Virus record (IMG/VR): IMGVR_UViG_3300036781_000113
Coordinates: 1-21,081 of that record
DNA length: 21,081 nt
From: a virus
Direction: 5' to 3' (one strand)
The notes under the pieces were generated by a model. That model was not told the DNA's origin and ran no database searches. It saw only the letters and a program-made list of their open reading frames with translations. Positions 4,547 to 18,723 of the stretch are shown here, in pieces. How positions within the stretch are numbered: position 1 is the stretch's first letter; every line of letters starts with the position of its first letter. The position numbers were made by a program, and so were the translations under genes.

Positions 4547-5349
4547 CAGCTAGACTGATCGCTGAAGATGTTGTAGCGGTAGCCCCGCGTTAAGTCGGGG
4601 TCTAGCTGCAACAACGGCACCTGAGCATTCACAGACCGAATCGTTGCCAGCGATGCTTTCGCAAGACCAACAATCACGTCATCAGGATCAATCTGATACT
4701 TGCCGTACAATCTAATATCGAGGTTGTACTGAAGCGCCTCCAGATAGGAGTCCGGCAGTGAAATCTCATCATCAAGCCCCGCGAACTTCTGAAGCGTATC
4801 CTTGAACAGCAGATGCACGTTGAACTGGTTGGGGAATGGGACCGGATAAATGTAGGCGCGACCCAGCGGTGTCGCCGCGTCATAGAACACATATGACGGC
4901 CACGAACCCAGGAACTTCATGCAGATCAGGTTGTAGGTCTCGCGCGCCTCAATCAATTCCAACGGGTAGTCGATAGGGCCCGGGCTACTTGGAAACTGAC
5001 CATTAGGGCCGAAATCGTTGTTGAAATCCCCGTTGAAATCTCCATTGCCGTCCTGCGTCGGTGCCATGCCGTTCAACTGGCGGACAAAGTTGCCGATTTC
5101 GAGCCTGTCTGGCCTAGCGGGGACATCGATATTGCCCCCCGGCCCGACTGTGACGAAGTTGTTGCCGTTCGTCGGGCAGATGCCTTCGACAAGGTGATAG
5201 ATCAGCCACCGCTTGCTGTTCCACTGGCCGATCATGCGGTTCAGGCGCACGAACGCCCCATTGATGTCCTCGGCAAGCGGTGTCTGACCGACGCCGAGAA
5301 CGCCAATGTCTTCAAGGCAAGAGTAGATTATGTCTCTCGCCGTAGTCAT
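4546..5349 (-). CDS. P22 gp4-like head-tail adaptor
   Basis: A 267-aa protein starting MTTARDIIYSCLEDIGVLG, the helical opening typical of P22 gp4 and related connector adaptors. These dock as a ring under the portal and link it to the gp10 tail hub. The continuation AEDINGAFVRLNRMIGQWNSKR (residues about 26-47) is the second conserved helix of the family. Later ELIEARETYNLI and the C-terminal SYLEALQYNLDIRLYGKYQ fit the larger adaptors of this group; P22 gp4 itself is 166 aa. An Asn/Gly/Asp-rich stretch (GNGDFNGDFNNDFGPNGQFP) in the middle is probably a loop. I chose ATG at 5349, which overlaps the upstream stop as TGATG, over a TTG at 5376 that would add nine Cys/Gly residues. The gene lies between coat-linked genes and gp10, as expected. 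Confidence 0.8.
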   Translation of the reverse strand: MTTARDIIYSCLEDIGVLGVGQTPLAEDINGAFVRLNRMIGQWNSKRWLIYHLVEGICPTNGNNFVTVGPGGNIDVPARPDRLEIGNFVRQLNGMAPTQDGNGDFNGDFNNDFGPNGQFPSSPGPIDYPLELIEARETYNLICMKFLGSWPSYVFYDAATPLGRAYIYPVPFPNQFNVHLLFKDTLQKFAGLDDEISLPDSYLEALQYNLDIRLYGKYQIDPDDVIVGLAKASLATIRSVNAQVPLLQLDPDLTRGYRYNIFSDQSS

Positions 5350-5768
5350 CAGGCAAGCGCAACCGGGCCGACCCAAGCGCCGTAGGCAGTCGAGATCAGA
5401 AGCGCCGTGGCATTTGCTCCAAGTGAAACGCCCGTCGCGCCGGCTGTGCCATTGATGGTGTCCTGCGTGCCAGACGGCAGCGATGAAGTCGTATTGGCAA
5501 ACATCTGCACCGCCGTCGCCGTGGTGTTGACAACGATCAGGTTCTTGCCCGGCTGCGAGCGCGGAAGCTGCACGCTGTCATTAGCGCCGGCCACCGTCGT
5601 AATGGTGTTGATACCCGCCAACAGGACAGGGGCGCCGACTTGAGCGCCACCAGACAGCGCCGTGATGCCGGCAACGTAGTTGCGGAGACCTTCGGCTGAA
5701 GCCATCGCTTCAATCGACCCGTTCTGAAGGCCGACGCCGGGAAATAGAGCGGAGATAGGAGCGGTCAT
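5349..5768 (-). CDS. Putative head decoration / structural protein
   Basis: A 139-aa protein with no recognised enzyme motif. After a helical N-terminus (EAMASAEGLRNYVAGITALS, residues about 20-39) it is made of short beta strands with small residues: NLIVVNTTATAVQMFANTTS, then GATGVSLGANATALLISTAY ending GAWVGPVALA. This 'value, null, Gly-Trp' pattern is common in small beta-barrel phage decoration or fibre modules, and the Sec-signal protein at 14105-14593 ends with a similar module. A Shine-Dalgarno AGGA lies 8 nt before the ATG, and the stop overlaps the adaptor start as TGATG. Position between coat and adaptor supports a head-surface or connector role. The function is inferred from shape and context only. 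Confidence 0.6.
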   Translation of the reverse strand: MTAPISALFPGVGLQNGSIEAMASAEGLRNYVAGITALSGGAQVGAPVLLAGINTITTVAGANDSVQLPRSQPGKNLIVVNTTATAVQMFANTTSSLPSGTQDTINGTAGATGVSLGANATALLISTAYGAWVGPVALA

Positions 5769-5783
5769 CGGATGTATCCTTGA

Positions 5784-6101
5784 TTAGATAATTTCGGGTT
5801 CGCGGGGCTTCGGCGGCCGGCCGGGACCGCGCTTGAGCATGTTGGGCATCGTCTCTGTTTCGGCTTCGTCACCCACGTCAAAAACGGTGGGCTCCGGCTC
5901 CTTAACCGGTTCCACCTTCCCAGCAGAACCCCACTCTGCCCGAACCCGCGCCTCCCCTTCCGCATCCAGCACATGAGCCTCCTTGCCGTTTTCCCGGATG
6001 TACTTGGGGTATTCCAAGTGAGCGGGAACGGCGCGGCGTTGCTCGCGTTCTGCATGGGCTTCGAAGAAATGCTTGGGCTCGTCTTGAATGGGGTTCTGCA
6101 T
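5784..6101 (-). CDS. Small charged protein with C-terminal AT-hook motif
   Basis: A 105-aa, highly charged protein. The N-terminal half is helical and basic/acidic (residues 10-60), the middle is Glu/Pro/Val-rich (KVEPVKEPEPTVFDVGDEAE), and the C-terminus ends KRGPGRPPKPREPEII. The RGPGRPPKP segment at residues 91-99 has the RGRP-like core of an AT-hook, which binds the minor groove of AT-rich DNA in other proteins. An AAGGAAA Shine-Dalgarno lies just before ATG at 6101, only 9 nt after the coat stop, so it is co-transcribed with the coat gene. It may contact packaged DNA or be a minor capsid component. No family is recognised with confidence, and the AT-hook reading rests on one short motif. 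Confidence 0.65.
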   Translation of the reverse strand: MQNPIQDEPKHFFEAHAEREQRRAVPAHLEYPKYIRENGKEAHVLDAEGEARVRAEWGSAGKVEPVKEPEPTVFDVGDEAETETMPNMLKRGPGRPPKPREPEII

Positions 6102-6110
6102 GGGGTTTCC

Positions 6111-7424
6111 TTACGAAGGCAGCGGGCCGGGAACGATAACGCCCCATTCGCCGCGTGGGAGGACCGTCCCGTAAATCACGTCGAGACGGCTGATGAGAAC
6201 GTCAGTGCCGATCTGGTACTGCGTCAGGGCGCGCATCGAAACGCCGTCGTAGGCGACACGGGACGATTCCTGAAGGTTCTGCGGGATCACCAAGTCCGCC
6301 GTCGCCATCGTGATCATCTGCGGGGCAAAAGCGAGGTTCTTGATGTAGGTCGAGCTTGCCGGCATGACCAACGCCACTTGGGCATTGTTGGATGGCACAA
6401 CGATGTTGGGGGTCTGCGGGTTCGGCGCAATCGTCTGGTACTGCGACGGAACGTTGACGCCGTTAACCAGCGTGGGGCCGACAAGGCCCGGATAGACCGG
6501 GATCGTGGTAGCGCCGGTAATCACGTTCGCGGTCACGACGAACTGCCGCAAGGCGCCCGTGTTTTGCTTGGTGACGCGGTTGACAGCATAGACACCGGCA
6601 ATCGTGATGATGTCACCGACATTGAACGTGCCCGTGATGGCCGAGACTGCCAGCGTCGTGCCGCCCGGTGACCCACCTTGACCAGCCGATGTCAGCGCGC
6701 CACCAGCCGAGAAGGTGCCGACCGTGTGCTTCAGGACCGTCTGGTCCTTGGCCCAATCGAACCCGATGGCGTTCTTCATCGAGCCGGTGCGGTACTGCTG
6801 GCTGATTTCCGTCACGGGGTTCAAGAGACCCTGAAGGAGACCGGCAATCTGCGCATCGGTGAAGGGGTCGTTTACGACCTTACGACGCAGCGTCGGGGCC
6901 GAGTTGTTGTCGAGCAACGCGCCGGCCGACAGATAGGTAAACTGCGTCGGGCTGAGGATCATGGTGCCGTTGAGATTGGCCACGATGTTGCAAACGCCGC
7001 CACCGCCGCCATTGGGGGACGATCCGCCGTAGATGGTGGAGTAGCCGCCTTCGGTCGTGGACATCACGTCGAGGGCCACAGCGCCGGCAAGATTGTTCAT
7101 CTTGGGGAGCATGATGCGTTCGGCGTAGTCATCCAACTTCAGTGTGCGCTCTGCGGTGCTGAAGCCCGTATCGACGCCGACCTGATTTTGCAGCGGCAGG
7201 GTAGTGAACTGCTCCGTGGTGTTCTGGACCGACGCAGCCGCGCCGGAGCGGACGGTGTAGTCGTTCGGGAGACGGATACGCAACGTCTGGCCGATTTTGG
7301 CGCCGTCGATTGCGAACTGGTCGTCGTACTGCATATCGATGGATTGCAGGAATTTGTTCGTATTGCGGAAAATCTTGACCGCCATACGGGTGATCATGTC
7401 GATGGTAAGAAGGGTATTGGCCAC
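6111..7424 (-). CDS. Major capsid (coat) protein, P22 gp5-like
   Basis: Read from a GTG at 7424 the product is 437 aa, close to P22 gp5 (430 aa). That start has a perfect AGGAGG five bases upstream. An upstream in-frame start would add 34 residues of non-conserved sequence. The N-terminal region MANTLLTIDMITRMAVKIFRN and IDMQYDDQFAIDGAKIGQTL fits the family's N-arm and E-loop. A beta-rich insert at about residues 240-335 (GTTLAVSAITGTFNVGDIITIAG, then TIPVYPGLVG) corresponds to the I-domain that sits on the HK97 fold in P22. The C-terminal part (VSMRALTQYQIGTDVLISRLDVIYG) closes the P-domain. It forms the procapsid shell with the scaffold encoded just upstream. Family call strong. Confidence 0.87.
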   Translation of the reverse strand: MANTLLTIDMITRMAVKIFRNTNKFLQSIDMQYDDQFAIDGAKIGQTLRIRLPNDYTVRSGAAASVQNTTEQFTTLPLQNQVGVDTGFSTAERTLKLDDYAERIMLPKMNNLAGAVALDVMSTTEGGYSTIYGGSSPNGGGGGVCNIVANLNGTMILSPTQFTYLSAGALLDNNSAPTLRRKVVNDPFTDAQIAGLLQGLLNPVTEISQQYRTGSMKNAIGFDWAKDQTVLKHTVGTFSAGGALTSAGQGGSPGGTTLAVSAITGTFNVGDIITIAGVYAVNRVTKQNTGALRQFVVTANVITGATTIPVYPGLVGPTLVNGVNVPSQYQTIAPNPQTPNIVVPSNNAQVALVMPASSTYIKNLAFAPQMITMATADLVIPQNLQESSRVAYDGVSMRALTQYQIGTDVLISRLDVIYGTVLPRGEWGVIVPGPLPS

Positions 7425-7607
7425 TGTGGCCTCCTGATCTCGGAAAGGGGGAATGCGAGCCTTATTCTCGCGGTTAGCCTGATGCCCGAGATCAAGCGGT
7501 TTTCGGACGAGCCTCGTGTTTACCACCCGAGTAAGTGGGCGCCATCCGTCGCGCGGGGTAGATCGGATAAGTCCTCGCCGTTTATAGGCCGCGATGCGCC
7601 TTACACA
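7425..7607. other. Gap between scaffold and coat genes
   Basis: This 183-nt gap is the longest inside the late gene block. On the coding strand it ends with the strong AGGAGG ribosome binding site of the coat gene. A short inverted pair GCGAG/CTCGC sits around 7456-7472. I see no clear -35/-10 pair and no stem plus U-tract terminator. It may hold an extra coat promoter or an mRNA processing site, but nothing in the sequence proves either. Confidence 0.4.
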
Positions 7608-8447
7608 CTAATACCAGCCGCGAGCCGCAGCCTTCTTATCGAACTCGCCGCTGAAATCATCCATTGGCATCTTTTCGAGGTCCACAACCGGAGTTGCCGA
7701 CCCGCCAACGGGCTTAATCGGTGCCGGTGCCTTGGAAACGACCCGAGGCGCGGCTTTCTTGGCAGCGACTTCCATCGCAATACGGGTCATCGCCGCAACA
7801 CCACGGGATGACTGGCCAGACTGCATATCGCGATAGATTGCAGCCGCTTGGTCGGGGTTGTTACCAAGATAGTATAGCACGTCGGCCGGCGCGCCGGTCG
7901 CCAGCGCCGCCTCGCGGAACTCATGCGAGTTGACGGCGCCAATCATTCGCAGCGGCTCCATCGCCGTCTCGAAATCCTTATAAGCGGCCTTTCCGTCATC
8001 AACCGCCTTGTTGCACGCCTCGTCATGGGCGCGCTGGGCGGCAATCGAAACCGCGCGGCGTTCAATCTCGCTCTCCGGCACATATCCGGGCTGCGGCAAT
8101 GGGGGCACCACGCCTTCGACCGGGGCTTGCCCCTTTCGCAAAGCCTCAATCGTAGCCTGCAAAACTTCATTCTGCTTGCGGGCTTCCTCGGCTACCCGCT
8201 GCGCTTCGTGGCGCTTCCCGCTTTCTTCGGCCAACCGATCCTTCAGCCACGAAGGCATCGGAGCCTTCTTCGTCTCAGGCTCGGCTATCGGCTCGGCCGG
8301 TGACTCAGGTTCCGCTACGGCCTCAACAACAGGCTCCTCGGCCGCAGCCTCAACGACAGGAGCCGGCGCGACTGGCTCAGGCACGGCCTCTTTCGGAGGC
8401 ATCGTCGAAACCACACCGTCGTCCAAGCCTTCTTCATAAGATGCCAT
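7608..8447 (-). CDS. Scaffolding protein, P22 gp8-like
   Basis: A 279-aa protein that directly precedes the coat gene, as the scaffold does in P22 (303 aa). Residues about 17-60 are a Pro/Glu/Ala/Val low-complexity segment. Residues 66-105 (SWLKDRLAEESGKRHEAQRV, continuing to LQATIEALRKG) form a likely coiled coil. After a Pro-rich link a helical body follows, with HDEACNKAVDDGKAAYKDFE and PADVLYYLGNNPDQAAAIYR. The last 25 residues form a short helix with basic residues (DFSGEFDKKAAARGWY), like the coat-binding end of scaffolds. A GAGGGG Shine-Dalgarno lies 6 nt before ATG 8447. Scaffolds are poorly conserved, so the call rests on gene order, length, coiled coil and composition. Confidence 0.78.
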   Translation of the reverse strand: MASYEEGLDDGVVSTMPPKEAVPEPVAPAPVVEAAAEEPVVEAVAEPESPAEPIAEPETKKAPMPSWLKDRLAEESGKRHEAQRVAEEARKQNEVLQATIEALRKGQAPVEGVVPPLPQPGYVPESEIERRAVSIAAQRAHDEACNKAVDDGKAAYKDFETAMEPLRMIGAVNSHEFREAALATGAPADVLYYLGNNPDQAAAIYRDMQSGQSSRGVAAMTRIAMEVAAKKAAPRVVSKAPAPIKPVGGSATPVVDLEKMPMDDFSGEFDKKAAARGWY

Positions 8448-8458
8448 AAATTGCCCCT

Positions 8459-8809
8459 CTATTGGATGATGAGCCGAGACGAAGCGCCCTGTTCACAGAA
8501 GGCTTCGTAAATCTCGTCTTTCAGGAATTGGTGAACCGGATCGTTTTCGTGCGCTTGAGCATCTTGGAGCATACCAGCTAGAATCTCTTTGGCCGCTGGC
8601 AGAAAGCTCGCCCAATTCAGCTTGACGTACTTATAGACGCCGATCTTGCCCCAATGGGCGCGAAACTCTTTGGTTCTGTGGTTGTCCTCGTAGAACGCGC
8701 CGCAGATTTCCTCGGCCGTCTTGCGAAACAGCGTCGGGATGTCCTCGGGGAGCGCGTGCTTTTCAAGGACGTTCGAGAAATCGTAGTCGCGTTGGGGGAG
8801 GGGTTTCAT
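8459..8809 (-). CDS. Conserved small protein between portal and scaffold, function unknown
   Basis: A 116-aa acidic, helical protein. Visible features are an N-terminal YDFSNVLEKHALPEDIPTLF stretch, an aromatic middle (HWGKIGVYKYVKLNWASFLP) and the C-terminal helices KEILAGMLQDAQAHENDPVH and FLKDEIYEAFCEQG. There is no signal peptide, membrane span or enzyme motif. Its ATG overlaps the portal stop as ATGA, and it ends 12 nt before the scaffold start, so it is made with the head proteins. A head-assembly accessory role is likely from position alone. I do not recognise a named family. Confidence 0.65.
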   Translation of the reverse strand: MKPLPQRDYDFSNVLEKHALPEDIPTLFRKTAEEICGAFYEDNHRTKEFRAHWGKIGVYKYVKLNWASFLPAAKEILAGMLQDAQAHENDPVHQFLKDEIYEAFCEQGASSRLIIQ

Positions 8810-10935
8810 TGCGAACCTGAGTTCATCATATCAATGGTCGGCGCATTGGCCGTCACTATAGCAGACAAATTATCATTTAGCATAGTCTGCAAGGTTTCAT
8901 CAACAACTGGCTTGATGTCGTTGTCCCCCAACTCCGGCTGCGCGTTGCTAATCGCTGTAATGCGCCGGGTGTGGCTGTCATAGACATCAATATCCTTCTG
9001 CTCGTCCTTACCCCTGATCTTGATCGCGTCTTCCGCCGCCTTCTTCGTCAGTTCGGCAACGATATGCATCAAATTCTGGTTCTGCTGCTGCAATTGCGCC
9101 ATTTGCGCCTGCAACTGCGGCGGGGGAGCCTCCCCCAATGCCTGCGGGGGAACCATACGTTTCAGTCGCTTGGCCAACTCGTCAGCCATCGGGAAATCGC
9201 AGACTTTCATCAGCAAGTCGCCGGCAATCGTCACCAAATCCTTATTGGCCGCCATTAACTGCGTCAGCGCGTTGTATGCTTCCTGCCGCTTGGTGGCGTA
9301 GTCCGGGCCGATGTCCGCCTCTACGTCGTAGGTGCCGACGTTGGGGTTGAAAATGGACCGCACCGCCTGCCCCTCAGCCGCCTGCTTGCTGAAATACGCC
9401 TGCTGCGCCTGCGGGTCGATCTGGACTTCCTCTTCGGAATCGTCTTCCGCCATGATCTTGATGATGCGGGGAGTGTCATAAATCTTGGGGATCAAATCAA
9501 TCAGGATTTTTCCCGTGAACCGGATGGCGGTGGCTAGCCCGTCGTTGAAATGGTACGTCGCATTGTCGCCCTGCGCCTGTCGCTCCTGAATGGCACGGCC
9601 CGATTTGGCGTTTTCGTTCTCACCCAACTGGGCCTGATACTGGCCCGTCACCATCATCATTTCCTGCTGGGCGATTTCCATGCCTTTGATGAGGGCTTCG
9701 GGCAGATTAGGCGGGGCAACACGCTCTGGCGTGGGGTAGGCACGGCCACCCTCATCGTCCCACGACTTCCACGGCAGAAACGCTGGGTTGCTCACATTCG
9801 ACTTGGCCCAAACCGCTTCGTTGCCCTCAATCGAGGCCGGGTCCAGAATCCACGGCGACTTGGGCTGCAACGCCACGGACTCGGTCGTCGCACTCGCCCA
9901 GTAGTTATACTGCCGCTGGGCATCCTTCATCGGACGAACGTGGCCCTTGCGGTCCAGTTGCTTCTCGACGATGGTTTCCTCTCCTACCGCCCGCACGATG
10001 GGGACGTAGATGCCCGGCCAGTCGCGCTTGTCCAGAACCTTCTCGCCGGCAATCGTGAACCACTCGATCTTGTTTTCGATAATCTCCCGCTCTTTGTAAT
10101 CAAGGCTGTCCTTGATTTGTTCAAGCCCCTCTTTCGGGAACTTGGACAGGCGGATGGTCTGCATCTCGCCGGTCTGAGGGTTTCGAGCCCGGACCAGCTT
10201 GTCTTTCTTCGGCAGCACGCGGAAATACTCAACCACCCGCACATGGTCTTCCGCCAGCCACGCCGCGTCATCAGCACCGCCTAAAGCTGCGCCTGCCGAA
10301 ATCTCCTTGTGCTCGGGATACTTGCTGCGAAATTCGTCCTTTGGCATGTCGTCGAAGACAAAGCCAAATCGCGCGTCGGAGCCGTCTTCCTCGTTGATGT
10401 CGGGGTCCAACAGGATCGTGGTCGGGTCTTTCACGCGGCGAATGTAGATTTCCTGATCGAAAGTCTCCGGCCCCAGATGGTCAGTCACAACGCGCCAATA
10501 GCCGATGCCCGTCCTGATCTGAAACCGCGAGGCCGTCATATAGGCGTTCTGCGCGCGCGAAATGTATTCGATATGCCGAACGATGCCCTCGAAAACCTGC
10601 GCTGCCTCGTAAGTCGCGCCGTTGCCGGTCGGGCGGATGTTCACGCTGGGCTTGTTCTTGCGCGCCTCATTCTCGATCTGAAGGCAATGCACCCGCGTCT
10701 TGTTCAACGTCAGATACGGCTTGCGCTGCACCTCGCGGTCATTGCGCACGTCGTCTGGCCACTGCCAGCCGTTGTCGGGGTCGCCATTGACGAATTTAAG
10801 GTCGGACGCTGCCCGTGTGCGGGTTTCGGCCTCCCATGCCATTGCGCGCCGAAAACGCGACCGGGCCTCACGGATGACTTGCTCGTCGCCCGTAAACCCG
10901 GCCGTGTCTTCGTCTTCACCTACTATGTCGGTCAT
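8806..10935 (-). CDS. Portal protein, P22 gp1-like
   Basis: The 709-aa product is near the P22 portal in length (725 aa) and has its family signatures. These include FRRAMAWEAETRTRAASDLKFVNG at residues about 28-51 (quoted in outline), RKPYLTLNKTRVHCLQIENE, ARKNKPSVNIRP, and ISRAQNAYMTASRFQIRTGI followed by GYWRV. IYIRRVKDPTTILLDPD marks the wing domain. The region LGENENAKSGRAIQERQAQG is the conserved stem/crown part. From about residue 604 a Gln-rich coiled coil (QLQAQMAQLQQQNQNLMHIV) matches the C-terminal barrel helices that reach into the head. The dodecamer is the packaging channel and binds the terminase. It overlaps its neighbours by 4 nt on both sides. Confidence 0.92.
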   Translation of the reverse strand: MTDIVGEDEDTAGFTGDEQVIREARSRFRRAMAWEAETRTRAASDLKFVNGDPDNGWQWPDDVRNDREVQRKPYLTLNKTRVHCLQIENEARKNKPSVNIRPTGNGATYEAAQVFEGIVRHIEYISRAQNAYMTASRFQIRTGIGYWRVVTDHLGPETFDQEIYIRRVKDPTTILLDPDINEEDGSDARFGFVFDDMPKDEFRSKYPEHKEISAGAALGGADDAAWLAEDHVRVVEYFRVLPKKDKLVRARNPQTGEMQTIRLSKFPKEGLEQIKDSLDYKEREIIENKIEWFTIAGEKVLDKRDWPGIYVPIVRAVGEETIVEKQLDRKGHVRPMKDAQRQYNYWASATTESVALQPKSPWILDPASIEGNEAVWAKSNVSNPAFLPWKSWDDEGGRAYPTPERVAPPNLPEALIKGMEIAQQEMMMVTGQYQAQLGENENAKSGRAIQERQAQGDNATYHFNDGLATAIRFTGKILIDLIPKIYDTPRIIKIMAEDDSEEEVQIDPQAQQAYFSKQAAEGQAVRSIFNPNVGTYDVEADIGPDYATKRQEAYNALTQLMAANKDLVTIAGDLLMKVCDFPMADELAKRLKRMVPPQALGEAPPPQLQAQMAQLQQQNQNLMHIVAELTKKAAEDAIKIRGKDEQKDIDVYDSHTRRITAISNAQPELGDNDIKPVVDETLQTMLNDNLSAIVTANAPTIDMMNSGSQ

Positions 10936-11955: not shown

Positions 11956-13557
11956 TCAACTCCCCATCCATCCTTGCGCCAACGGCATATCGCCCGACCA
12001 AGCGGGCTTCTTCTCAGTCTTCCTGATAAATCCGCGCTCCCGAACATGCCATGCCATCACGATGGCGTCGGCTTCGTCGGGGGAGCTTCCCAATCTAGTC
12101 CTAATTTCTTCTTTGGACTCGATCTGTATCTTGCCGCGCTGATATTTCCACCGCGCCGCCGACAGTTGCGCTAGTATCCTGTCACCAGGCGGCAGCGCAA
12201 CATCCTCTTTCTCCAAGGCTTTCCGAAAATCCCAATACATCTTGGCGCGAAGATTGACAAAGCCTAGCAGCGTCTCGCTATCCATGCCGTCAGCACCGGC
12301 AGAAAAGACAATGGCGCTCGCTGTAATCTGGTGGTGCGTCTTGAGGTGATCCCTTGCCGAGCCGCCCCATCCGCCAGTCGTATCGATAGCAATCGCCGCG
12401 CCGTGGGTTCTGGCGGCCAGAATAAGATTGGCGACTGAGGGGCCGTCTGGTGTCTCGCCACCCGGATAGGACTTTACCTTGCCGAACAGGTTAACGTCGT
12501 ACAGTGGCACCAAGCATGTCTTGTCTGAGCCACCCTGCGCGACATCCACACCGAGCGACCGCATAATTGCTTTGCCGGGCTCTTTCCAACGGAGTTGGGC
12601 CTTCCTTAAAAGGTCTGATGGCAACACTTGCCATTCGTGGTCTTCTTGTCCCGCGAGAAAGCTACCGTTGAGAAGCTGCGAACGGAGGGGTTCGGGCTTG
12701 GACTGAATTTGAGCCCGGTAATTTGTATCCTTTAAGTAGGGATTATCATCTAGCCGGCTGGGTATAAAAGTCCTGCTCAGCGGTTTTGTCACTTCGTTGT
12801 GGTGCGGTCGGAAATCAATCTCTTCCTGCGTTGCAAGCCGCCAAGTCCAGTCTTCATTCACCCAAACAGGCTCAGGCCCGTCAACCCATATGGATTTCAG
12901 TTCCTCTTTATTTCCAACCAGCACGGCCCACCGCAATTCACCGTATTTAGCGGGCTGGGGAAAGAAAGGGTCAACCCACGGGGCAAACCACTCAATTAGA
13001 TATGTGCCCTCGCCGGCGATGGGCGGATTGCTTGCCAGAATTGCGCGGCACCGATGTCCGTTGGCCGACCGCAGCCAACCCAACACGAAATCGATCTTGA
13101 AAGGGTTAATCTGCGCTGCCTCGTCGATACAGACCAGATCGTGATCCCGGCCTTGCCAAGACCTTTCCGCGCCCGGCGCAGCCAAATGACCGCATTCGAT
13201 ATAGCGCCCGTCAGTCGTTGTTAGCTGCTTAAGGTTCGAGTTCATCTTGACGGGATTAGGACAGAGTTCCGTAAGCCTACCCCAGAAACCGTTAAGATCA
13301 GATGACTGACTTCTAAATACAACCGTGCGATAATGTTCGGTTAACGCAAGTCCGCAAAGTAAATCCGTTTTCCCACCACCCACGGAACCTCCGAAAAGTA
13401 GCATATCTGCTTGGCTTAATTGGGCAGAAAGCTGCGGTCCAGGAGTCGCCAACCACGGTTTACTTAATTCAGGTGCAAGTAACTTATCCAAATCGGCAAG
13501 CTGATCTGCGCTAAGCTCTGCGATTAGTTCGTCTAGCTTGTCGAGAACGCTGGTCAC
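11956..13557 (-). CDS. terL: Terminase large subunit (packaging ATPase/nuclease)
   Basis: The 533-aa protein is the DNA-packaging motor. In the ATPase half, Walker A is GGSVGGGKT (residues 56-64), Walker B is LVCIDEAAQ (141-149, with D145 and catalytic E146), and the coupling motif is ILASNPP (173-179). The C-terminal RNase H-like nuclease has its acidic residues in SLGVDVAQGGSDKT (D338), AIAIDTTGGWG (D392) and SSPDEADAIVMAWH (D494/D497). It works with the small subunit upstream and docks on the portal encoded downstream, filling the head and cutting the concatemer. The start is GTG at 13557, overlapping the small-subunit stop as GTGA. All key residues are present, so it should be active. Confidence 0.95.
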   Translation of the reverse strand: MTSVLDKLDELIAELSADQLADLDKLLAPELSKPWLATPGPQLSAQLSQADMLLFGGSVGGGKTDLLCGLALTEHYRTVVFRSQSSDLNGFWGRLTELCPNPVKMNSNLKQLTTTDGRYIECGHLAAPGAERSWQGRDHDLVCIDEAAQINPFKIDFVLGWLRSANGHRCRAILASNPPIAGEGTYLIEWFAPWVDPFFPQPAKYGELRWAVLVGNKEELKSIWVDGPEPVWVNEDWTWRLATQEEIDFRPHHNEVTKPLSRTFIPSRLDDNPYLKDTNYRAQIQSKPEPLRSQLLNGSFLAGQEDHEWQVLPSDLLRKAQLRWKEPGKAIMRSLGVDVAQGGSDKTCLVPLYDVNLFGKVKSYPGGETPDGPSVANLILAARTHGAAIAIDTTGGWGGSARDHLKTHHQITASAIVFSAGADGMDSETLLGFVNLRAKMYWDFRKALEKEDVALPPGDRILAQLSAARWKYQRGKIQIESKEEIRTRLGSSPDEADAIVMAWHVRERGFIRKTEKKPAWSGDMPLAQGWMGS

Positions 13558-14093
13558 TCGTCTGTAGACCTTGCTGCGAGCAATTTAGCCAGTGCGGCGC
13601 GGCGTTGCTCGGCCGTCACCATATTAACTTCTAAGGGCGCCCCATCCACCCCACTAACTTCCTTCCGCGCCACCTCCACATATTCCCGGCTCATGCGCGG
13701 CAGCATGTATTTGCGCGTGTCGATCCGCAACTTGGACCGCTGAATGTGATCGACGTTGAGCTTCGCCTCGCCACCGTCGCCTTCAACGAAATCATTGGTG
13801 CCGTCGTCGGCAATCTCAAGCATCTGGTCAAACAGGAAATCTGCCCTGATCTTGCGGGCGACTTCATACTCGGCTCGCAGCGCTACTTGCGCGGGATCGG
13901 CTAGCCACTTGCGGAATGTGTTGTGATTGGCGAGGCCGTTCTTGCCGAATATCTGGCTCGTAGGCTTGCCCTGCGCATACAAATCGAGAATGCGTGCCAT
14001 CATGTCAGGCCGCGTGCCAACACCCGGAAAGGTTCTTTCGTTGTTGAAAGTCCCTATGCCGGGTGCTTTGTATCCTTTTGGCTCGCGCGCCAT
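13554..14093 (-). CDS. terS: Terminase small subunit, Sf6-like
   Basis: The 179-aa protein has an N-terminal helix-turn-helix region (RPDMMARILDLYAQGKPTSQ, then IFGKNGLANHNTFRKWLADP), suited to recognising the packaging site. The middle is the characteristic Sf6-type signature RADFLFDQMLEIADDGTNDF and, later, VDHIQRSKLRIDTRKYMLPR, which forms the oligomer core. The C-terminal AEQRRAALAKLLAARS helix may reach the large subunit. An AGGG Shine-Dalgarno lies before ATG 14093. Gene order (directly before the large subunit with a 4-nt overlap) fits. It selects phage DNA for packaging, and the pac or cos site was not located. Confidence 0.85.
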   Translation of the reverse strand: MAREPKGYKAPGIGTFNNERTFPGVGTRPDMMARILDLYAQGKPTSQIFGKNGLANHNTFRKWLADPAQVALRAEYEVARKIRADFLFDQMLEIADDGTNDFVEGDGGEAKLNVDHIQRSKLRIDTRKYMLPRMSREYVEVARKEVSGVDGAPLEVNMVTAEQRRAALAKLLAARSTDE

Positions 14094-14104: not shown

Positions 14105-14593
14105 CTATCGAATCCGATACCAGACCAAGGTGGCGGCATTGTATTTGTAGGCCACGCCGACGTTGGCGACCAAGGCAGTTACCGCCGCATTGATGGTCGT
14201 GCCCGCCGAAGGAGTCAGCGTCAACGCCGTCTGCGTCTGCGTCGAATAGATCGCGAGTTCCTGCCGGTCAACCGGGTTGGCAGGAAAAACAATCGTACCC
14301 GTCGCCAGCGTGCCAGCCGGGGTAATCTCGATCACCGACGTGGGATTGACGGCCGTGATGGTGAAGGCGGTGACCGGCGTCGACTGCTGAAGGGCACCGA
14401 AGCCCAACTGAAACGGCGTCAGATAGCCCGTCTGCGGGTTGGCGCCATTGGGATATTCAGTGTCGGCCGGAATGCGCTCGTTGCCCGTGTAGGAGCCGAT
14501 TGCGGGCAGGCCGGGGAAGAGACCCTGACCAGACTGTGCGAAGGCGGGGAGAGCGAGGGAGATGAGAGCGGCAGAGAGGAGGAGTTTGCGCAT
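14105..14593 (-). CDS. Signal-peptide-bearing phage structural protein, function unknown
   Basis: A 162-aa protein with an evident Sec signal peptide: MRKLLLSAALISLALPAFA followed by QSGQG, with the AFA cleavage site after residue 19. The mature part begins GLFPGLPAIGSYTGNERIPA and continues into a beta module. The strands are VIEITPAGTLATGTIVFPAN, ELAIYSTQTQTALTLTPSAG and TTINAAVTALVANVGVAYKY, ending TLVWYRIR. That end resembles the decoration-like module of the protein at 5349-5768. The signal resembles that of the tailspike at the left edge (MRK start, A-Q-S cleavage region). It lies just before the terminase genes. Export, membrane tethering or a fake signal used for virion assembly are all open. 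Confidence 0.65.
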   Translation of the reverse strand: MRKLLLSAALISLALPAFAQSGQGLFPGLPAIGSYTGNERIPADTEYPNGANPQTGYLTPFQLGFGALQQSTPVTAFTITAVNPTSVIEITPAGTLATGTIVFPANPVDRQELAIYSTQTQTALTLTPSAGTTINAAVTALVANVGVAYKYNAATLVWYRIR

Positions 14594-14607
14594 CGTTGGA
14601 GTTCCTT

Positions 14608-15000
14608 TTAGGCGGAGAGATAAGCAAGGTCGTAACGCAAATCATATGTATCCGTCATGACTTGATACATCAGAATTGTTCGGATTATCAGATTTCCGAG
14701 GGCTGTATGGATTGCTACCACTTGATTAGGTAGGATAAGCGGGACGCATTGGATGCGCCGTTCTGGAATTTGTTTAACGATGCCTTCAGCTATCTTCACT
14801 TTCCGTACTTCGGCGTCCGGCGCATCGAAGGGCAATGAAGCACCGATCTGCGTTTTTGGCATATTGTCGGAAAAAACATCGGTAGAAGGCTTATCCACGA
14901 TAATTTTATTGGATTCCATCTGCCTATAAATCATGCCGGCCATTTTGTGACCCTCGGCAAGAATATCAACGTGATGTGGAAAGCGGGGATCGCTACTCAA
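14608..15000 (-). CDS. Unknown small protein, start uncertain
   Basis: The frame ends at 14608 and is clearly coding through MAGMIYRQMESNKIIVDKPS, EVRKVKIAEGIVKQIPERRI, LPNQVVAIHTALGNLIIRT and MYQVMTDTYDLRYDLAYL. I place the start at TTG 15000 (130 aa), because it overlaps the upstream stop by 4 nt (TTGA) like other junctions here. It also follows a GGGGA, and the added DPRFPHHVDILAEGHK reads as protein. ATG at 14943 (111 aa) has GAGGG seven bases upstream and is a good alternative. A longer start at 15057 would run 60 nt into the neighbour and is unlikely. No domain is recognised. Confidence 0.55.
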   Translation of the reverse strand: MSSDPRFPHHVDILAEGHKMAGMIYRQMESNKIIVDKPSTDVFSDNMPKTQIGASLPFDAPDAEVRKVKIAEGIVKQIPERRIQCVPLILPNQVVAIHTALGNLIIRTILMYQVMTDTYDLRYDLAYLSA

Positions 15001-15245
15001 TACTTTCCCCGCTCGCGCCACTCTTCCTTGCCCTCGGCTGACATACAATCCCGACACTTACACCCAGCCGCGTGCATACCCATGGCGCGATTGGCGGCGG
15101 CGTCGATTTTCGCCTCGGTGGCGTTGGTCATCCAGCCGTCGGACTTCATTTTGCTGGACGCTGCGGCAATCTTGCTCGCGTTGGATGGGCCGTCTTTGGG
15201 CATGGGGCGGAGCGGAGGGGATTTCTTGTCGGTGGGGGATTTCAT
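14997..15245 (-). CDS. Small basic protein with CxCxxC-like motif
   Basis: An 82-aa, Lys/Ala-rich protein. The first half is polar (MKSPTDKKSPPLRPMPKDGP), followed by helical NASKIAAASSKMKSD and NATEAKIDAAANRAMGMHAA. Near the C-terminus GCKCRDCMSAEG holds three cysteines (C62, C64 and C67) plus an upstream His, a possible metal site. The EAKIDRAA-type helix resembles the C-terminus of the 66-aa protein at 15457-15657 (EEAKIDRAADKVLKK), hinting that the two share an element. It is coupled to both neighbours by 4-nt overlaps. Function unknown. Confidence 0.6.
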   Translation of the reverse strand: MKSPTDKKSPPLRPMPKDGPSNASKIAAASSKMKSDGWMTNATEAKIDAAANRAMGMHAAGCKCRDCMSAEGKEEWRERGKY

Positions 15246-15460
15246 GCGGCACTCTTTTCGGGATAGGGAAAGTGCGCGTCAACAAGATCGCGAACAAGGA
15301 CATTCACGAGGTATTGAATCTTATCGTCCGAGAACGATTGATAATTGTTGATATAGCGGAAAAACCGACCACCTCTTGGAACCCGCATAACTACGCGCAG
15401 ATCAGCACCATTTGCCATGGGCTCGACTTCGAAAACGGGCAAATCCAGATCAGGTATCAT
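15242..15460 (-). CDS. Unknown 72-aa protein
   Basis: A short, mostly soluble protein with acidic ends: MIPDLDLPVFEVEPMANG, a basic beta strand ADLRVVMRVPRGGRFFRYIN, then a helix DDKIQYLVNVLVRDLVDAHF. ATG 15460 overlaps the upstream stop as ATGA, and its own stop overlaps the next start in the same way, so it belongs to the tightly coupled block between the NusG-like gene and the terminase. No family is recognised. Its size and neighbours are typical of small regulatory or inhibitory phage proteins, but that is only context. Confidence 0.6.
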   Translation of the reverse strand: MIPDLDLPVFEVEPMANGADLRVVMRVPRGGRFFRYINNYQSFSDDKIQYLVNVLVRDLVDAHFPYPEKSAA

Positions 15461-15657
15461 TTCTTCTTCAACACCTTATCCGCCGCGCGGTCGATCTTGG
15501 CTTCCTCGGCCTTGGACATGCGGCCCTTGCGCTCGGCTTCCGAGGCACGCGCTTTCGCGTTGGCGGCGTGAGATCGATCCGGAATCGGGTAGCTGCGATC
15601 CGGCCCCGCGAACTTACCAACGGGCATCTTCTTGCGGGCGGCGGCAGTGAGTTTCAT
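15457..15657 (-). CDS. Small basic conserved phage protein ('FAGP..SYPIPDRSHA' type)
   Basis: A 66-aa very basic protein. The N-terminus MKLTAAARKKMPVGKFAGPD followed by RSYPIPDRSHAANAKARASE matches a motif that recurs in many phage and prophage proteins: a K/R-rich start, FAGP, then sYPIpD..HA..A.aR. It ends in a Lys-rich helix AEEAKIDRAADKVLKKK. Such domains occur alone or fused to larger phage proteins, and their function is not established to my knowledge. Start ATG 15657 has AGGG seven bases upstream, 9 nt after the NusG-like stop. The domain likeness is remembered, not searched. Confidence 0.65.
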   Translation of the reverse strand: MKLTAAARKKMPVGKFAGPDRSYPIPDRSHAANAKARASEAERKGRMSKAEEAKIDRAADKVLKKK

Positions 15658-15666
15658 GGAGAGGCC

Positions 15667-16227
15667 CTAAGCACAGACAAGGCTACGCACGGGCGTTGTG
15701 GGGAGCCGGCTAGGCCGAATCTCAGCCGCAACGTGGCTAACCTGAAATGGGATCAAGCTAGCCTTCCCGAGGAAATCAACCGCTAGCACGACAGCGCGGG
15801 CGCCGTCAATAGCTTGTATGCTGGCAAAGTGGCCACATAGGGGGCCATCCACAATCTGCACGCGTTGGCCTACCGAATAGGGGTTCTTGGTGGGGCGGCC
15901 CTCTTCCTCGACGCGAGCAAGCAGGCTGGGCATGTATTCGTCGGGGAGGGGCTGCGGACGGTCTCCTAAAGCGGAAACCAACAAGCCGCGCACGTCGGGC
16001 TGGCTGTCAATTGCGTTCCATAATACGGCGGTGAGTTGCTCGATATTCGCGAATAGGTAGCGGCCGAATCGTGGAATATGGATGTCCTCGCGTTTGACGC
16101 CGGCTCGACCTCTGCGAGGATCGCGCCTGATAATCGTCGGCATTCGCACATCTAGGCCCATGTAGGCCAGCCGCCCGTAAGCCTGCCGCACGCGGCCTTC
16201 TTTGGCTTCGACGACGTACCAGGGCAT
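15667..16227 (-). CDS. NusG-like transcription (anti)termination factor, phage-encoded
   Basis: A 186-aa protein with both NusG domains. Residues 1-100 are an NGN domain, opening PWYVVEAKEGRVRQAYGRLA, with FGRYLFANI and GLLVSALGDRPQPLP where host NusG binds RNA polymerase. Residues about 117-166 are a KOW domain: YSVGQRVQIVDGPLCGHFAS, then AVVLAVDFLGKASLIPFQVS. NusG/RfaH proteins hold polymerase in a processive state and link it to other factors. Start ATG 16227 is preferred over GTG 16236 because AGGTG lies upstream at the right distance. It sits near the head of a roughly 16-kb late operon, where an antiterminator would act. I infer it helps polymerase read the late genes. A host-directed role is also possible. 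Confidence 0.82.
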   Translation of the reverse strand: MPWYVVEAKEGRVRQAYGRLAYMGLDVRMPTIIRRDPRRGRAGVKREDIHIPRFGRYLFANIEQLTAVLWNAIDSQPDVRGLLVSALGDRPQPLPDEYMPSLLARVEEEGRPTKNPYSVGQRVQIVDGPLCGHFASIQAIDGARAVVLAVDFLGKASLIPFQVSHVAAEIRPSRLPTTPVRSLVCA

Positions 16228-16236
16228 CACCGGCAC

Positions 16237-16347
16237 CTATTGACGACATCGTGCATCACTTGCGGCCTCGCGGCACTCGTTCATGAGCGCCATTTGGTCG
16301 TCGGTCGGCTTGAGATAACCGAAGGTGGAATCGTGGAGGGTTTTCAT
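16237..16347 (-). pseudogene. 36-aa ORF resembling the N-terminus of an Acb2/Tad1-hairpin (DUF7681-like) protein
   Basis: From ATG 16347 the frame reads MKTLHDSTFGYLKPTDDQMA followed by LMNECREAASDARCRQ and a TAG. An AAGAG lies five bases before the ATG. The FGYLKPTDDQ....N..REAA pattern recalls the opening of small phage proteins in the Acb2/Tad1 hairpin group, some of which sequester cyclic nucleotides to block CBASS or Thoeris defence. Those proteins continue for some 35 further residues with a second conserved helix (around MWAN), which is absent. Codon third positions are GC-rich until GAG-GCC and then lose this bias. A one-base shift there would read QVMHDVVNRCR and end as TGATG on the NusG-like start. 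It overlaps the last third of another small frame (16256-16480). I read it as a truncated or decaying gene; the family link is from memory. Confidence 0.42.
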
Positions 16348-16480
16348 AAGTGCTCTTTTTCTGAGAGAAAATAGCAGCGTATTCCGCTTCAGCGCGTTGC
16401 AGACACGTCTCGGAGAGTTTCTTCTCCCCGAGTATTTTCTTGAACTCAGTGGTGGCTTTGTCGAAATAAGAGGAGTCCAT
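16256..16480 (-). CDS. Small helical protein, possibly frameshifted at its 3' end
   Basis: From ATG 16480 (TGATG overlap with the upstream stop) the frame encodes 74 aa. The first 45 residues look real: MDSSYFDKATTEFKKILGEK, then KLSETCLQRAEAEYAAIFSQ, charged and helical with normal codons. The rest (PPRFHLRLSQADRRPNGAHE...) is Arg/Pro-rich and lies antiphase to the Acb2-like frame, so it is probably not original. If the A5 run at about 16360-16366 had one more A, the protein would end SQKKEHL at a TGA inside ATGA, giving the usual 4-nt junction with the next ORF. The function is unknown. The coding call is good for the first half only. Confidence 0.5.
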   Translation of the reverse strand: MDSSYFDKATTEFKKILGEKKLSETCLQRAEAEYAAIFSQKKSTYENPPRFHLRLSQADRRPNGAHERVPRGRK

Positions 16481-17118
16481 CACAAATGCCTATACCCGCC
16501 CGAGAACACATCCCACGTCGCCGCGATCTGCTCGCGAGTTTTGGAGAGGGGCTCGGCGGTGAAGAGTTCGGCCTTTTTGGCCCGCGCTCGATCATCGTCC
16601 CGCTTGCGCTTCAAGAGGGTTAGTTCGTTGTTCTCGCCAAGGGGCAGGTCCGGCAGCGCGTCAAGCACAGCCTTGCGTTCAGCCAGCCTCTGACGGGCCT
16701 GATCAAGTTTGGTTGGATATGCAAGCGGGTCAGGCGCCGGCTCAACACGTACCCCACCGCCGCCGGGCTCACTCCGCATCACGACTTGGTAGGACATAGG
16801 CACGGGCGTCGACAAGAAAGCCCACGGCACCTTGCTGCGCATCCTCTCATTCAGCGTCTCATACGCCCTTGCCGCCTCGGCCGAAGCAATTGAGGGAGGC
16901 GGATCAATCATGGCGTAGGCATCGTCAATAATGGCCTGCACCGAGCTTTTACCCTCCATCACCGCCACCATGTCCCGGAACGCGGCGTCGTCGGCCTGCG
17001 TGGGCGGGTTGCAAAAGGGCGAAACGTCGCCGCGCATCACACCACCATAGGACGCCCCACATTCCAGACAATCGCAGCCGTCACGAAACCTGTGAGCTAC
17101 CCAATTTCTATGTTCCAT
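16480..17118 (-). CDS. Unknown 212-aa protein with Cys-rich N-terminus
   Basis: Start ATG 17118 follows AGGGGG at five bases. An adjacent GTG (17121) is too close to that site. The N-terminal part HRFRDGCDCLECGASYGGVM followed by SPFC holds four cysteines and a histidine and may bind zinc. The middle is acidic and helical (ADDAAFRDMVAVMEGKSSVQ), and a central stretch PWAFLSTPVPMSYQVVMRSE precedes a long charged coil LDQARQRLAERKAVLDALPD. It ends with AATWDVFSGGYRHL. No family is recognised. It is the first large gene after the Cro-like regulator, so it may be a delayed-early or regulatory protein rather than a virion part. Confidence 0.6.
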   Translation of the reverse strand: MEHRNWVAHRFRDGCDCLECGASYGGVMRGDVSPFCNPPTQADDAAFRDMVAVMEGKSSVQAIIDDAYAMIDPPPSIASAEAARAYETLNERMRSKVPWAFLSTPVPMSYQVVMRSEPGGGGVRVEPAPDPLAYPTKLDQARQRLAERKAVLDALPDLPLGENNELTLLKRKRDDDRARAKKAELFTAEPLSKTREQIAATWDVFSGGYRHL

Positions 17119-17127
17119 CACTTCCCC

Positions 17128-17235
17128 CTATTCAACGCCACCGGCCAGCATGGGATGGAGAGGGGGAACCACACCGGCCGACAGCGGAGCCCCGAAAGGC
17201 AGGTGCAGGATGCGCCATGGCTGGGCGGTAGTCAA
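17128..17235 (-). CDS. Possible 35-aa hydrophobic ORF
   Basis: A TTG at 17235 overlaps the stop of the helix-turn-helix gene by 4 nt (TTGA) and opens a frame reading MTTAQPWRILHLPFGAPLSA, then GVVPPLHPMLAGGVE, ending at TAG 17128, ten bases before the next gene start. Third codon positions are mostly G or C. There is no Shine-Dalgarno site and the protein is Pro-rich, so this could be a chance frame. It otherwise fills the only gap at this end of the leftward operon. Confidence 0.22.
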   Translation of the reverse strand: MTTAQPWRILHLPFGAPLSAGVVPPLHPMLAGGVE

Positions 17236-17444
17236 GGCTTGCGAAGGCCACGCTTGCGGAGAGCGCGGGCGACGGCGGGGCTTTCGGCTAGCTCGGCTAG
17301 CGTGGCAAGATAGCCGGGGATGCAGCGTTCGCCGTATTCCCATCGACCCACAGTTCTAATGAAACTCACGCCGACAGCCTTCGCAAACCCTGACTGCGAT
17401 AGCCCTAGTTTCTCCCTGAATCCCCGCACATCGGCCGGCGTCAC
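17232..17444 (-). CDS. Small XRE/Cro-type helix-turn-helix regulator
   Basis: Read from GTG 17444 the product is 70 aa: MTPADVRGFREKLGLSQSGF, AKAVGVSFIRTVGRWEYGER, then CIPGYLATLAELAESPAVAR. The LSQSGFAKAVGVSFIRTVGRWE segment is a standard XRE helix-turn-helix with the recognition helix around SFIRTVGRWE. A one-residue excess in the turn is slightly unusual. A TTG at 17486 would add 14 residues but falls inside the candidate promoter and palindrome, so I prefer GTG with AGGA nine bases upstream. It heads the leftward genes and faces the rightward XRE gene across the repeat-rich region. This suits a Cro-like or antirepressor-linked switch protein. Confidence 0.7.
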   Translation of the reverse strand: MTPADVRGFREKLGLSQSGFAKAVGVSFIRTVGRWEYGERCIPGYLATLAELAESPAVARALRKRGLRKP

Positions 17445-17480
17445 GTTCCATAATCCTGATTTTGGGCCGACGGCCCTACC

Positions 17481-17515
17481 GGACAAAATGTCCTACTGTT
17501 CGGGGCGGGCGTCAA
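17481..17515 (-). promoter_or_regulatory. Candidate leftward promoter with palindromic operator over the -10
   Basis: On the minus strand TTGACG (17510-17515) and GACATT (17487-17492) are 17 bases apart. The -10 box lies within the palindrome GGACA-AAA-TGTCC (17481-17493). Transcription would begin near 17480, upstream of the GTG of the helix-turn-helix gene. A repressor on the palindrome would block it. The -35 is 5/6 to consensus, the -10 only 3/6. Confidence 0.42.
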
Positions 17516-17527
17516 GGCCCCATGAGC

Positions 17528-17557
17528 GGACAGGACAGGACAGGACAGGACAGGACA
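17528..17557. repeat. Six perfect tandem GGACA pentamers
   Basis: Six head-to-tail copies of GGACA fill 30 bases just upstream of the leftward -35 box. The same pentamer forms the arms of the palindromes at 17481-17493 and 17563-17581, so it may be a binding half-site array (or iteron set). Slippage at a short tandem repeat is the simpler alternative. Confidence 0.8.
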
Positions 17558-17810: not shown

Positions 17811-17839
17811 TTAACATATCTAATATACTACCCTATATA
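17811..17839 (+). promoter_or_regulatory. Candidate rightward promoter in the AT-rich tract
   Basis: TTAACA (17811-17816) and TATATA (17834-17839) are separated by 17 bases, a 5/6 and 4/6 match to a sigma-70-type promoter. A perfect TATAAT follows at 17841-17846 but has no -35 at proper spacing. It would drive the XRE gene with a leader of about 220 bases. The whole tract is AT-rich, so chance matches are likely. Confidence 0.35.
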
Positions 17840-17928
17840 TTATAATCGTTAATCCATACTCCTATCTATAGTCTTTTTACCCTCTTTATAGAGAAACAGA
17901 GAAACAGATCATATAGAAAGATTGAATT

Positions 17929-17971: not shown

Positions 17972-18056
17972 CAAAGAGGAACAGTGGCACATTCGATTCG
18001 GTGGGGTTTACAAACCCGCTTGGATCATTATACTTCCTCGAAAGTCCTCTTTGGAG
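17972..18056 (+). promoter_or_regulatory. Structured leader of the XRE gene
   Basis: CAAAGAGGA (17972-17980) is the perfect complement of TCCTCTTTG (18045-18053), a nine-base stem. Inside it GGGTTT-AC-AAACCC (18004-18017) makes a second hairpin. The outer stem ends against GGAG (18053-18056), the only purine-rich site before ATG 18070. Folding could affect translation. The pairing is seen, the role inferred. Confidence 0.4.
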
Positions 18057-18069
18057 TGCATCCATCCCC

Positions 18070-18723
18070 ATGCCTGATATATCAGAGACAATTAAATCAG
18101 CCAGAAAATCTAAACGTCTGACCCAGCTTCAACTGGCCAAAAGTTTAGACCCACCTGTGTCGGCGTGCTACATTTCACAAATCGAGAACGGCTATTACAC
18201 CTCGCCAAACCCTGAAATCGTGCGCCAGATCGGGATCGTGCTCGGGATCAAGGTGGTTGGCGACGTTGAAGTTGGTGACGATCCGTTCGCTGATCTGACC
18301 GACTTTGAGCGCCGCGCCTTAGTCGATTGCCTTCGAAAGCTGCGGGCCGTGGACCCGATCAGCCGTCTCAAGGCCGGAAAGCTTGTGTTGAAGGCCGATC
18401 CGGACGTGGACGAGCTGGCAATGAACGCTTTCGCTTTGGCTAAAAACGCGGCCATGCGCGTTCTTGTCTGGGATCCTGATGATAATGAGAGCGAACCGGA
18501 GACGGGGTGGGTCATCACCGAGAAGGCCCGCTACGTCGAGCAGGCGTGGCTGTGGGCCGAGGGAATTGCCGTCCAGTCAGATAAGGGTTGGTATCAGGCT
18601 CTACGTCTTACGCCCCGCTCTATGGACTACGCCATGACGCAGATCGACAGAGACAAGGAGGCTATGGAAGCCAGGCACGCCCAAATGCGCGACGAAATGC
18701 TGATGAAGGGGAAAAAGAGATGA
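18070..18723 (+). CDS. XRE-family repressor-like regulator with a non-LexA C-terminal region
   Basis: From ATG 18070 the protein is 217 aa. Residues 5-61 form an XRE helix-turn-helix domain: SETIKSARKSKRLTQLQLAK, then PVSACYISQIENGYY and NPEIVRQIGIVLGI. The Tyr-Ile-Ser-Gln-Ile-Glu-Asn helix is typical of the recognition helix. Residues 78-217 are helical and acidic (LTDFERRALVDCLRKLRAVD, WLWAEGIAVQSDKGWYQALR) and lack the Ser-Lys pair of self-cleaving CI/LexA repressors. A GTG at 18001 would add 23 residues of poor quality and has no Shine-Dalgarno. The GGAG before ATG is 13 bases away, so the start is not certain. Facing the Cro-like gene, it is the probable lysogeny regulator, likely relieved by something other than RecA cleavage. 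Confidence 0.72.
   Translation: MPDISETIKSARKSKRLTQLQLAKSLDPPVSACYISQIENGYYTSPNPEIVRQIGIVLGIKVVGDVEVGDDPFADLTDFERRALVDCLRKLRAVDPISRLKAGKLVLKADPDVDELAMNAFALAKNAAMRVLVWDPDDNESEPETGWVITEKARYVEQAWLWAEGIAVQSDKGWYQALRLTPRSMDYAMTQIDRDKEAMEARHAQMRDEMLMKGKKR

Follow-up and report, generated by a model that had tools for sequence, protein, structure and literature searches.

The window analysed here, a virus DNA of 21,081 bases that comprises the whole record IMGVR_UViG_3300036781_000113 and may hold only part of a phage, carries a gene at 15667-16227 (minus strand) whose product is best explained as a putative processivity or antitermination factor of the phage late (packaging and head) operon, with a probability of about 0.7. 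The fold and superfamily of the protein, the recurrent place of such genes before the terminase genes on the terminase strand, and scores below every cut-off for housekeeping NusG and the named paralogues are established for this explanation; that the protein works in place of Q or N is something we infer from its position.

The NGN-KOW protein and the leftward operon

The minus-strand open frame extends from 16236 to 15667 and would encode 189 amino acids if begun at GTG. The ATG at 16227 (186 amino acids) is the likelier start of the gene, because AGGTG, a Shine-Dalgarno sequence, lies six bases upstream. The protein matched Pfam NusG at 43 bits (gathering score, 22.2) and PHROG 6386, 'transcription antiterminator', at 6e-21 over residues 2-167, and no match to the small Pfam KOW model was obtained. 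An AlphaFold2 model based on a 17-row alignment (mean pLDDT 87.8) comprised an alpha/beta NGN domain and a five-strand KOW barrel; the C-terminal strands lie between residues 122 and 168, pLDDT was 92-96 by block over residues 121-170, and KOW structures were matched. The initial annotation had described a full NGN-KOW protein, and the scans and the model bear this out. It had also proposed comparing the predicted NGN domain with NusG and RfaH: the best structural match of the model was 8pen_P, the NGN domain of recruited RfaH (Z 13.8, 100 aligned residues, rmsd 2.1), followed by NusG 1npp_C (Z 12.7, 147 aligned residues, rmsd 5.2).

The curated NCBIfam models scored the protein far lower than their own cut-offs, namely, 31.4 bits against 135.7 for housekeeping NusG (TIGR00922), 46.1 against 144.5 for RfaH (TIGR01955, yet the top-ranked of these models), 27.9 against 125 for LoaP and about 36.5-36.6 against 100 for UpxY. 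Because it falls below all four, we read the protein from its sequence as a divergent specialised NusG paralogue and not a stray housekeeping NusG; secE and rplK, the neighbours of housekeeping NusG, do not flank the window gene, whose context is phage late genes. In the alignment of the family, W3, P30 and F59 of the NGN domain are invariant and Y57 is nearly so. In RfaH numbering, window K9 aligns with K10 of RfaH, and P77, a NusG-like residue, stands at R73, so that one member of the RfaH ops-contact pair has an equivalent and the other has none. Residues K10 and R73 of RfaH contact ops (PMC5995543). By the account given in PMC7593976, the gain of K10 predates the emergence of RfaH and that of R73 came later, and for this reason the window protein resembles, in its sequence, an intermediate stage that has gained K10 and not R73.

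The phage is P22-like and probably alphaproteobacterial. Genes on the same strand extend from 17121 or 17486 down to 1237. The first leftward gene encodes a Cro-like helix-turn-helix (HTH) protein (17232-17486, minus strand, start perhaps GTG 17445; Pfam HTH_3, 3.2e-5), and it is followed by a gene of 213 (or 185) amino acids to which gene calling and Pfam and PHROG scans assigned no function (16480-17121, minus strand), a 75-residue open frame immediately upstream of the NGN gene that the gene caller missed (16256-16483, minus strand), the NGN gene itself and five small genes recognised as open frames and by gene calling (14105-15657, minus strand). The small terminase subunit TerS (13554-14093, minus strand; Sf6_terminase 2.2e-20, phrog_1482) and the large subunit TerL (11956-13557, minus strand; phrog_2 1.2e-28, phrog_979 2.3e-28) come next, 1.6 and 2.1 kb after the NGN gene, respectively. 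The P22-like portal (8806-10935, minus strand; Pfam P22_portal 3.5e-162) and the head genes identified with PHROGs (2564-8447, minus strand), comprising the scaffold (7608-8447), the major head protein (6111-7424 or further upstream) and connector genes, precede an acetyltransferase gene at the far end (1237-1698, minus strand; phrog_1249, 1e-11). A divergent HTH regulator, CI-like by position (18001-18723, plus strand; Pfam HTH_3, 3.7e-9), and small genes run rightward from 18001.

This order confirms that the NGN gene lies shortly before the terminase genes in a leftward operon of at least 16 kb, as first described. It does not stand strictly at the head of the late operon: three frames, the first of them the HTH gene, come before it, and another five small genes lie between it and TerS. 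There is no clear gap 3' of the window NGN gene that could house a separate late promoter. The last small gene before TerS (14105-14593) has a signal-peptide-like start and 52% identity to a gene of relative L002, and its product contains a DTE/GANPQT stretch that recurs in the first late gene of the phages with an ops core described below.

The pre-terminase slot in related phages and cellular relatives

Relatives were picked by portal, TerL, NGN protein or motif: 11 loci by TerL, 51 by portal, 26 by portal alignment in genomes, and 80 kept of 596 by portal alignment in viral contigs. A first-pass PF02357 search of genomes missed the window's own gene in spite of its above-cut-off hmmscan score, and a zero in that search is therefore no proof of absence. 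A profile built from five NGN proteins was run over the frames of 153 loci (some of which overlap) and revealed 16 NGN genes besides that of the window. All 16 lie on the strand of the portal gene and upstream of it, with 2.1-6.6 kb between the end of the NGN gene and the portal start, and their proteins share 17-29% identity with the window protein. These 16 proteins, the window protein and those of two named phages all match Pfam NusG and PHROG 6386 (19 of 19 scanned), and several very divergent NGN types occupy the same pre-terminase slot. Searches of whole records gave 5 positive records of 34, the window included, and 11 of 45, two named phages included; each positive record had one match and none elsewhere in the record.

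No NGN gene is present in L001 and L002, the two closest relatives by TerL (67% and 63%), and therefore the gene is optional in this phage type; where it occurs among the sampled relatives, it always takes the pre-terminase slot. No close relative of the window protein was found in the phage or viral collections searched. In the 16 loci and the two named phages the gene ends the early genes and directly precedes the late genes, which is the place of lambda Q; the window gene precedes the late genes yet follows only three frames of its own operon. In NGN-less relatives, a known antiterminator did not appear in that slot among the 25 families listed of 180 PHROGs and 34 Pfam families (117 of 255 proteins listed, from 46 loci).

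Both named phages are temperate and rhizobial, and each has one NGN gene upstream of its terminase and portal genes. In Sinorhizobium phage phi3LM21, p27, annotated as NusG, overlaps the replication-initiator gene and is separated from TerS (p29) by one gene. The slot seems to cross head modules, because phi3LM21 has a head maturation protease and a portal that its annotation does not name P22-like. In Bradyrhizobium phage ppBjS10J-1, the NGN gene is the last of the early genes, ahead of the packaging genes and on their strand; this 'hypothetical protein' (8884-9516 of locus L160; OP596615.1 29025-29657) is a member of the NusG superfamily. The other matches in the collection that gave the named phages were mostly host or unannotated contigs. 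A match in Microcystis phage MaAM05 (L161; MW495066.1 32410-44835) was set aside, as its secE-nusG-rplK-rplA, trxB and ilvD genes look like bacterial rather than phage DNA.

In cellular genomes, matches at 1e-8 included both host NusG and chromosomal paralogues; they occurred in 74 of 397 genomes in the order of G035 and in 64 of 385 in the class of G037. Among the cellular proteins found, the chromosomal paralogues L277, L279 and L285 are the nearest (33% identity; tree support of 89/79, which is not strong). Sampled loci of chromosomal paralogues carry polysaccharide-biosynthesis genes, as determined in a scan that covered 36 of the 78 large frames listed and omitted four regions that were taken as host nusG loci for their RpoB-sized frame, as well as some other regions; a P22 portal was found in none of the 20 cellular regions fetched. 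The proteins of L015, L083 and phi3LM21 group weakly with host NusG (90/82). The tree has 30 rows, with 11 of 20 host and chromosomal rows missing because their loci lay opposite to the reading direction and L080 omitted as a long branch, and its deep forks are weak. Chromosomal paralogues as the nearest cellular proteins, together with the polysaccharide genes at their loci, suggest an exchange between phage and host specialised NusG genes, in a direction that so weak a tree does not give.

Late leaders of the RfaH-like branch

The proteins of L105 and L110 keep K10, T72 and R73 at RfaH's own numbers. Both phages carry GCGGTAGC about 70 bases beyond the NGN stop, in the gap after the gene, and the motif is also present in L191, a third relative found by its protein; in each of the three, the coding strand has exactly one copy and its complement lacks the motif. 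Their leaders share the order of a sigma70-type promoter, GGCTGCGTT, a structured stretch, TGCGGTAGC (the ops core), CTATTCC or TATTCC, a Shine-Dalgarno sequence and a related first late gene. The promoter of L105 is TTGACA-17-TATGGT, and GGCTGCGTT lies 35-36 bases past the start of the -35 box in the leaders.

A composite motif, GGCTGCGTT-N18-48-TGCGGTAGC, was derived from these three phages and used in a DNA-only scan of all viral contigs, which returned 65 stretches. NGN genes are present in seven of them, and in all seven the site is downstream on the same strand; four are the motif source phages or a copy of one, and three are new contigs of two new phages, namely, L208 and the pair L247/L251, where the element lies 1.3 kb beyond the NGN gene and immediately before the first late gene. 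A -35 score of at least 5/6 at the right distance occurred in 6 of the 7 NGN-bearing stretches versus 4 of the 58 others, and a Shine-Dalgarno sequence plus ATG after the site in 7 of 7 versus 2 of 58. The shared late-leader element, with an RfaH-like gene upstream in each case, is located at L105 2422-2560, L110 6940-7085, L191 6833-6970, L208 3320-3470 (minus strand) and L251 2395-2544. Its conservation is in part shared descent, because the five phages form one branch (99/98).

The GCGGTAGC motif alone is not strand-biased around NGN genes (five forward versus four reverse sites in 19 loci). A count in which it occurred in 4 of 6 loci with a TRG motif in the NGN protein versus 0 of 13 others (Fisher p 0.004) was rejected as evidence, since reverse-strand sites were equally common (4). 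The weight for a recruiting site, as judged from sequence, is carried by the composite leader and its blind retrieval, not by GCGGTAGC on its own. In L049, GGCGGTAGCGTG, which is identical to the ops core, overlaps the very start of the phage's own NGN gene (2500-2511), and a TerL-sized gene follows directly.

The KOW domain was modelled as a barrel in the window protein and as beta strands in that of L105, from shallow alignments in both cases, and RfaH-type autoinhibition is thus not indicated by the model of this RfaH-like protein. Terminator-like hairpins were not enriched between the NGN gene and TerL (0.55 per kb, compared with 0.41 over the rest of that strand and 0.79 for the reverse strand), in a count that added L191 and left out L049, where TerL follows directly. 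In phi3LM21 and ppBjS10J-1, individual strong terminator-like hairpins (-14.7 and -25.1 kcal/mol, respectively) occupy the gap that follows the NGN gene.

Proposed mechanism and alternative readings

The leftward operon would be opened at the HTH-flanked control region, and the NGN protein would be made as a delayed-early product. Its NGN domain, through W3, P30, F59 and Y57, would bind the beta' clamp of RNA polymerase near the leader and would displace or exclude host NusG, and the polymerase carrying it could then transcribe the late genes, about 16 kb in all, without being held up at pause sites or at Rho and hairpin terminators. An element in the transcribed leader would probably mediate recruitment. 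In the RfaH-like branch, such an element would be the hairpin or structured stretch followed by TGCGGTAGC that can be seen immediately 3' of the apparent late promoter; for the window protein, the best candidate would be a hairpin-flanked CGGTAG in the leftward leader. A positive feedback loop would result, because the NGN gene lies inside the operon that it would help, and similar feedback has been proposed for operon-linked NusG paralogues. The suggestion that a specialised factor of NusG/RfaH type does the job of Q or N remains the best reading, as a NusG-superfamily gene fills the slot in every one of the 16 P22-portal loci that bear NGN and in both named phages, but the replacement of Q or N itself is deduced from position.

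The expectation that such a factor needs an ops-like site near the leftward promoter agrees with the site at the apparent late promoter of the RfaH-like branch, but in the window GCGGTAGC is absent from the coding strand of the operon, from 120 bases before the NGN gene to TerL, and the protein has no R73 equivalent. Likewise, the element 5' of the late operon for which the initial annotation had proposed a search was recovered as the shared leader of five phages of that branch, the window itself offering only a candidate CGGTAG. The control region is a relatively AT-rich space of 0.5 kb with several inverted repeats between the two divergent HTH genes. It contains 7 promoter-like sites versus 2.9 expected from shuffles, including TAGATA-18-TATAAT for the leftward operon (17839-17868, minus strand; 10 of 12 matches). 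The candidate recruiting element (17464-17493, minus strand) consists of a perfect hairpin GGACA-TTT-TGTCC, GGTA and a hairpin GGGCC-GTC-GGCCC, and it includes CGGTAG (17481-17476), the C3-G8 portion of the ops core; its DNA fold has a z of -3.4. An abutting hairpin accompanies 1 of 7 CGGTAG sites in the window and 33 of 772 in the loci of relatives, that is, 0.0077 per strand-kb, or about 0.4% expected in a 0.5-kb leader by a test chosen after seeing the sequence. The site lacks a comparative footprint, given the absence of close relatives of the window protein from the phage and viral collections, and an Rfam scan of the window gave no matches. An GGCGGTAG copy at 17224-17231 was rejected as ops, since it lies on the plus strand, antisense to the operon, and is probably due to chance; the window has two copies (0.53 expected), and 9 of 100 shuffles reach as many. 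A perfect tandem (GGACA)6 occupies 17528-17557 between the divergent HTH genes and possibly represents operator half-sites or a slippage-prone tract. The proposal that the palindrome-rich region holds a recruiting site thus gains a single CGGTAG, flanked by two hairpins and correctly oriented in the leader, a weak candidate found post hoc, but the palindromes may equally be repressor operators. We give even odds to the reading in which the palindromes and GGACA repeats are operators of the two HTH regulators, the CGGTAG is coincidental and the NGN protein uses another site, for example an RNA hairpin. Several inverted copies beside (GGACA)6 between divergent HTH genes are the usual operator layout, and the missing R73 equivalent points the same way, whereas the rarity of a hairpin-abutting CGGTAG and its occurrence on the right strand here argue against coincidence. 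This reading is compatible with a late-operon factor in everything except the candidate site.

Two further explanations would take the protein away from the late operon. It may be a host-takeover or anti-silencing factor that competes genome-wide with host NusG on RNA polymerase and protects phage DNA from NusG/Rho-dependent silencing without using a specific site in the late leader. The NusG-like P77 at the R73 position, the lack of a convincing site in the window, the weak grouping of three phage proteins with host NusG and the open beta KOW, free of an autoinhibited hairpin, in both AlphaFold2 models (window and L105) would fit such a role. We nevertheless consider it unlikely, as the fixed pre-terminase place in every positive record suggests a target in cis in the late operon and relatives have a recruiting site at that place. 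Alternatively, the gene may be a host NusG paralogue captured as cargo from polysaccharide loci, with host envelope operons and not phage genes as its targets. The chromosomal origin of the nearest cellular proteins and the sampled paralogue loci, with their polysaccharide genes and without a P22 portal, are consistent with capture; against this, cargo genes normally keep no single slot, and here 16 of 16 loci and two named phages share one, which several very divergent NGN types occupy. Cargo thus appears very improbable.

The late-operon factor can be compared with several known systems. The NGN slot corresponds to that of lambda Q, whose gene follows the early genes and precedes the late ones. 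Like Q and GafZ, the NGN protein would be a dedicated antiterminator of one phage or phage-like structural operon; no sequence relation to either was found, and the window protein is itself a NusG homologue. GafZ of the Caulobacter gene transfer agent has been reported to act together with host NusG (PMC11150451). The likeness to RfaH and ops of enterobacteria extends from the NGN-KOW fold, the specialised paralogue and the K10 equivalent of the window protein to the K10-T72-R73 pattern (checked for two proteins) and the ops core in the leader of a long operon in the RfaH-like branch. The window protein differs from RfaH in its score, R73 position and barrel KOW, and RfaH is a lone chromosomal gene, whereas the window gene is phage-encoded beside its presumed target. 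LoaP, UpxY, plasmid-borne ActX and others are encoded at or inside the long operon that they presumably serve (PMC7819879, PMC7593976). The window gene likewise sits in the long operon of its presumed action; it differs in scoring far under the LoaP and UpxY cut-offs and in a presumed target that is a phage late operon. The 'transcription antiterminator' families PHROG 6386 and 25909 are also comparable, as the window protein matches PHROG 6386 and p27 of phi3LM21 has the same place, but these families and p27 are annotations only.

NusG paralogues and phage proteins so annotated were already known (PHROG 6386; BFVD entries named NusG and RfaH). Prophage-borne rfaH-like genes are noted in PMC7593976, where the passage on them describes no target, and neither NusG nor antitermination appears in the main text of the phi3LM21 paper (PMC5537653). 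Phrase searches on phage NusG and phage RfaH found no paper, and the arrangement of a late promoter plus ops in phages is not described in the literature searched.

More broadly, and at rather less than even odds, temperate phages, many of them alphaproteobacterial, may repeatedly have placed a NusG paralogue in the lambda-Q slot. One branch would have a complete RfaH-ops module, in which the paralogue gene is joined by a late promoter, a structured stretch, an ops core roughly 40-60 bases from the transcript start and the first late gene. RfaH-type recruitment would be a phage late switch possibly exchanged with polysaccharide operons, and the window would represent an intermediate stage that reads a hairpin-flanked CGGTAG. 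If true, such a late switch would solve the Q problem by another molecular route, the antiterminator being the elongation factor itself and not a nozzle or a protein that assembles host Nus factors. These phages would then offer a compact system from nature, in which the leaders are short and their boundaries known, for asking how sequence-specific recruitment evolved.
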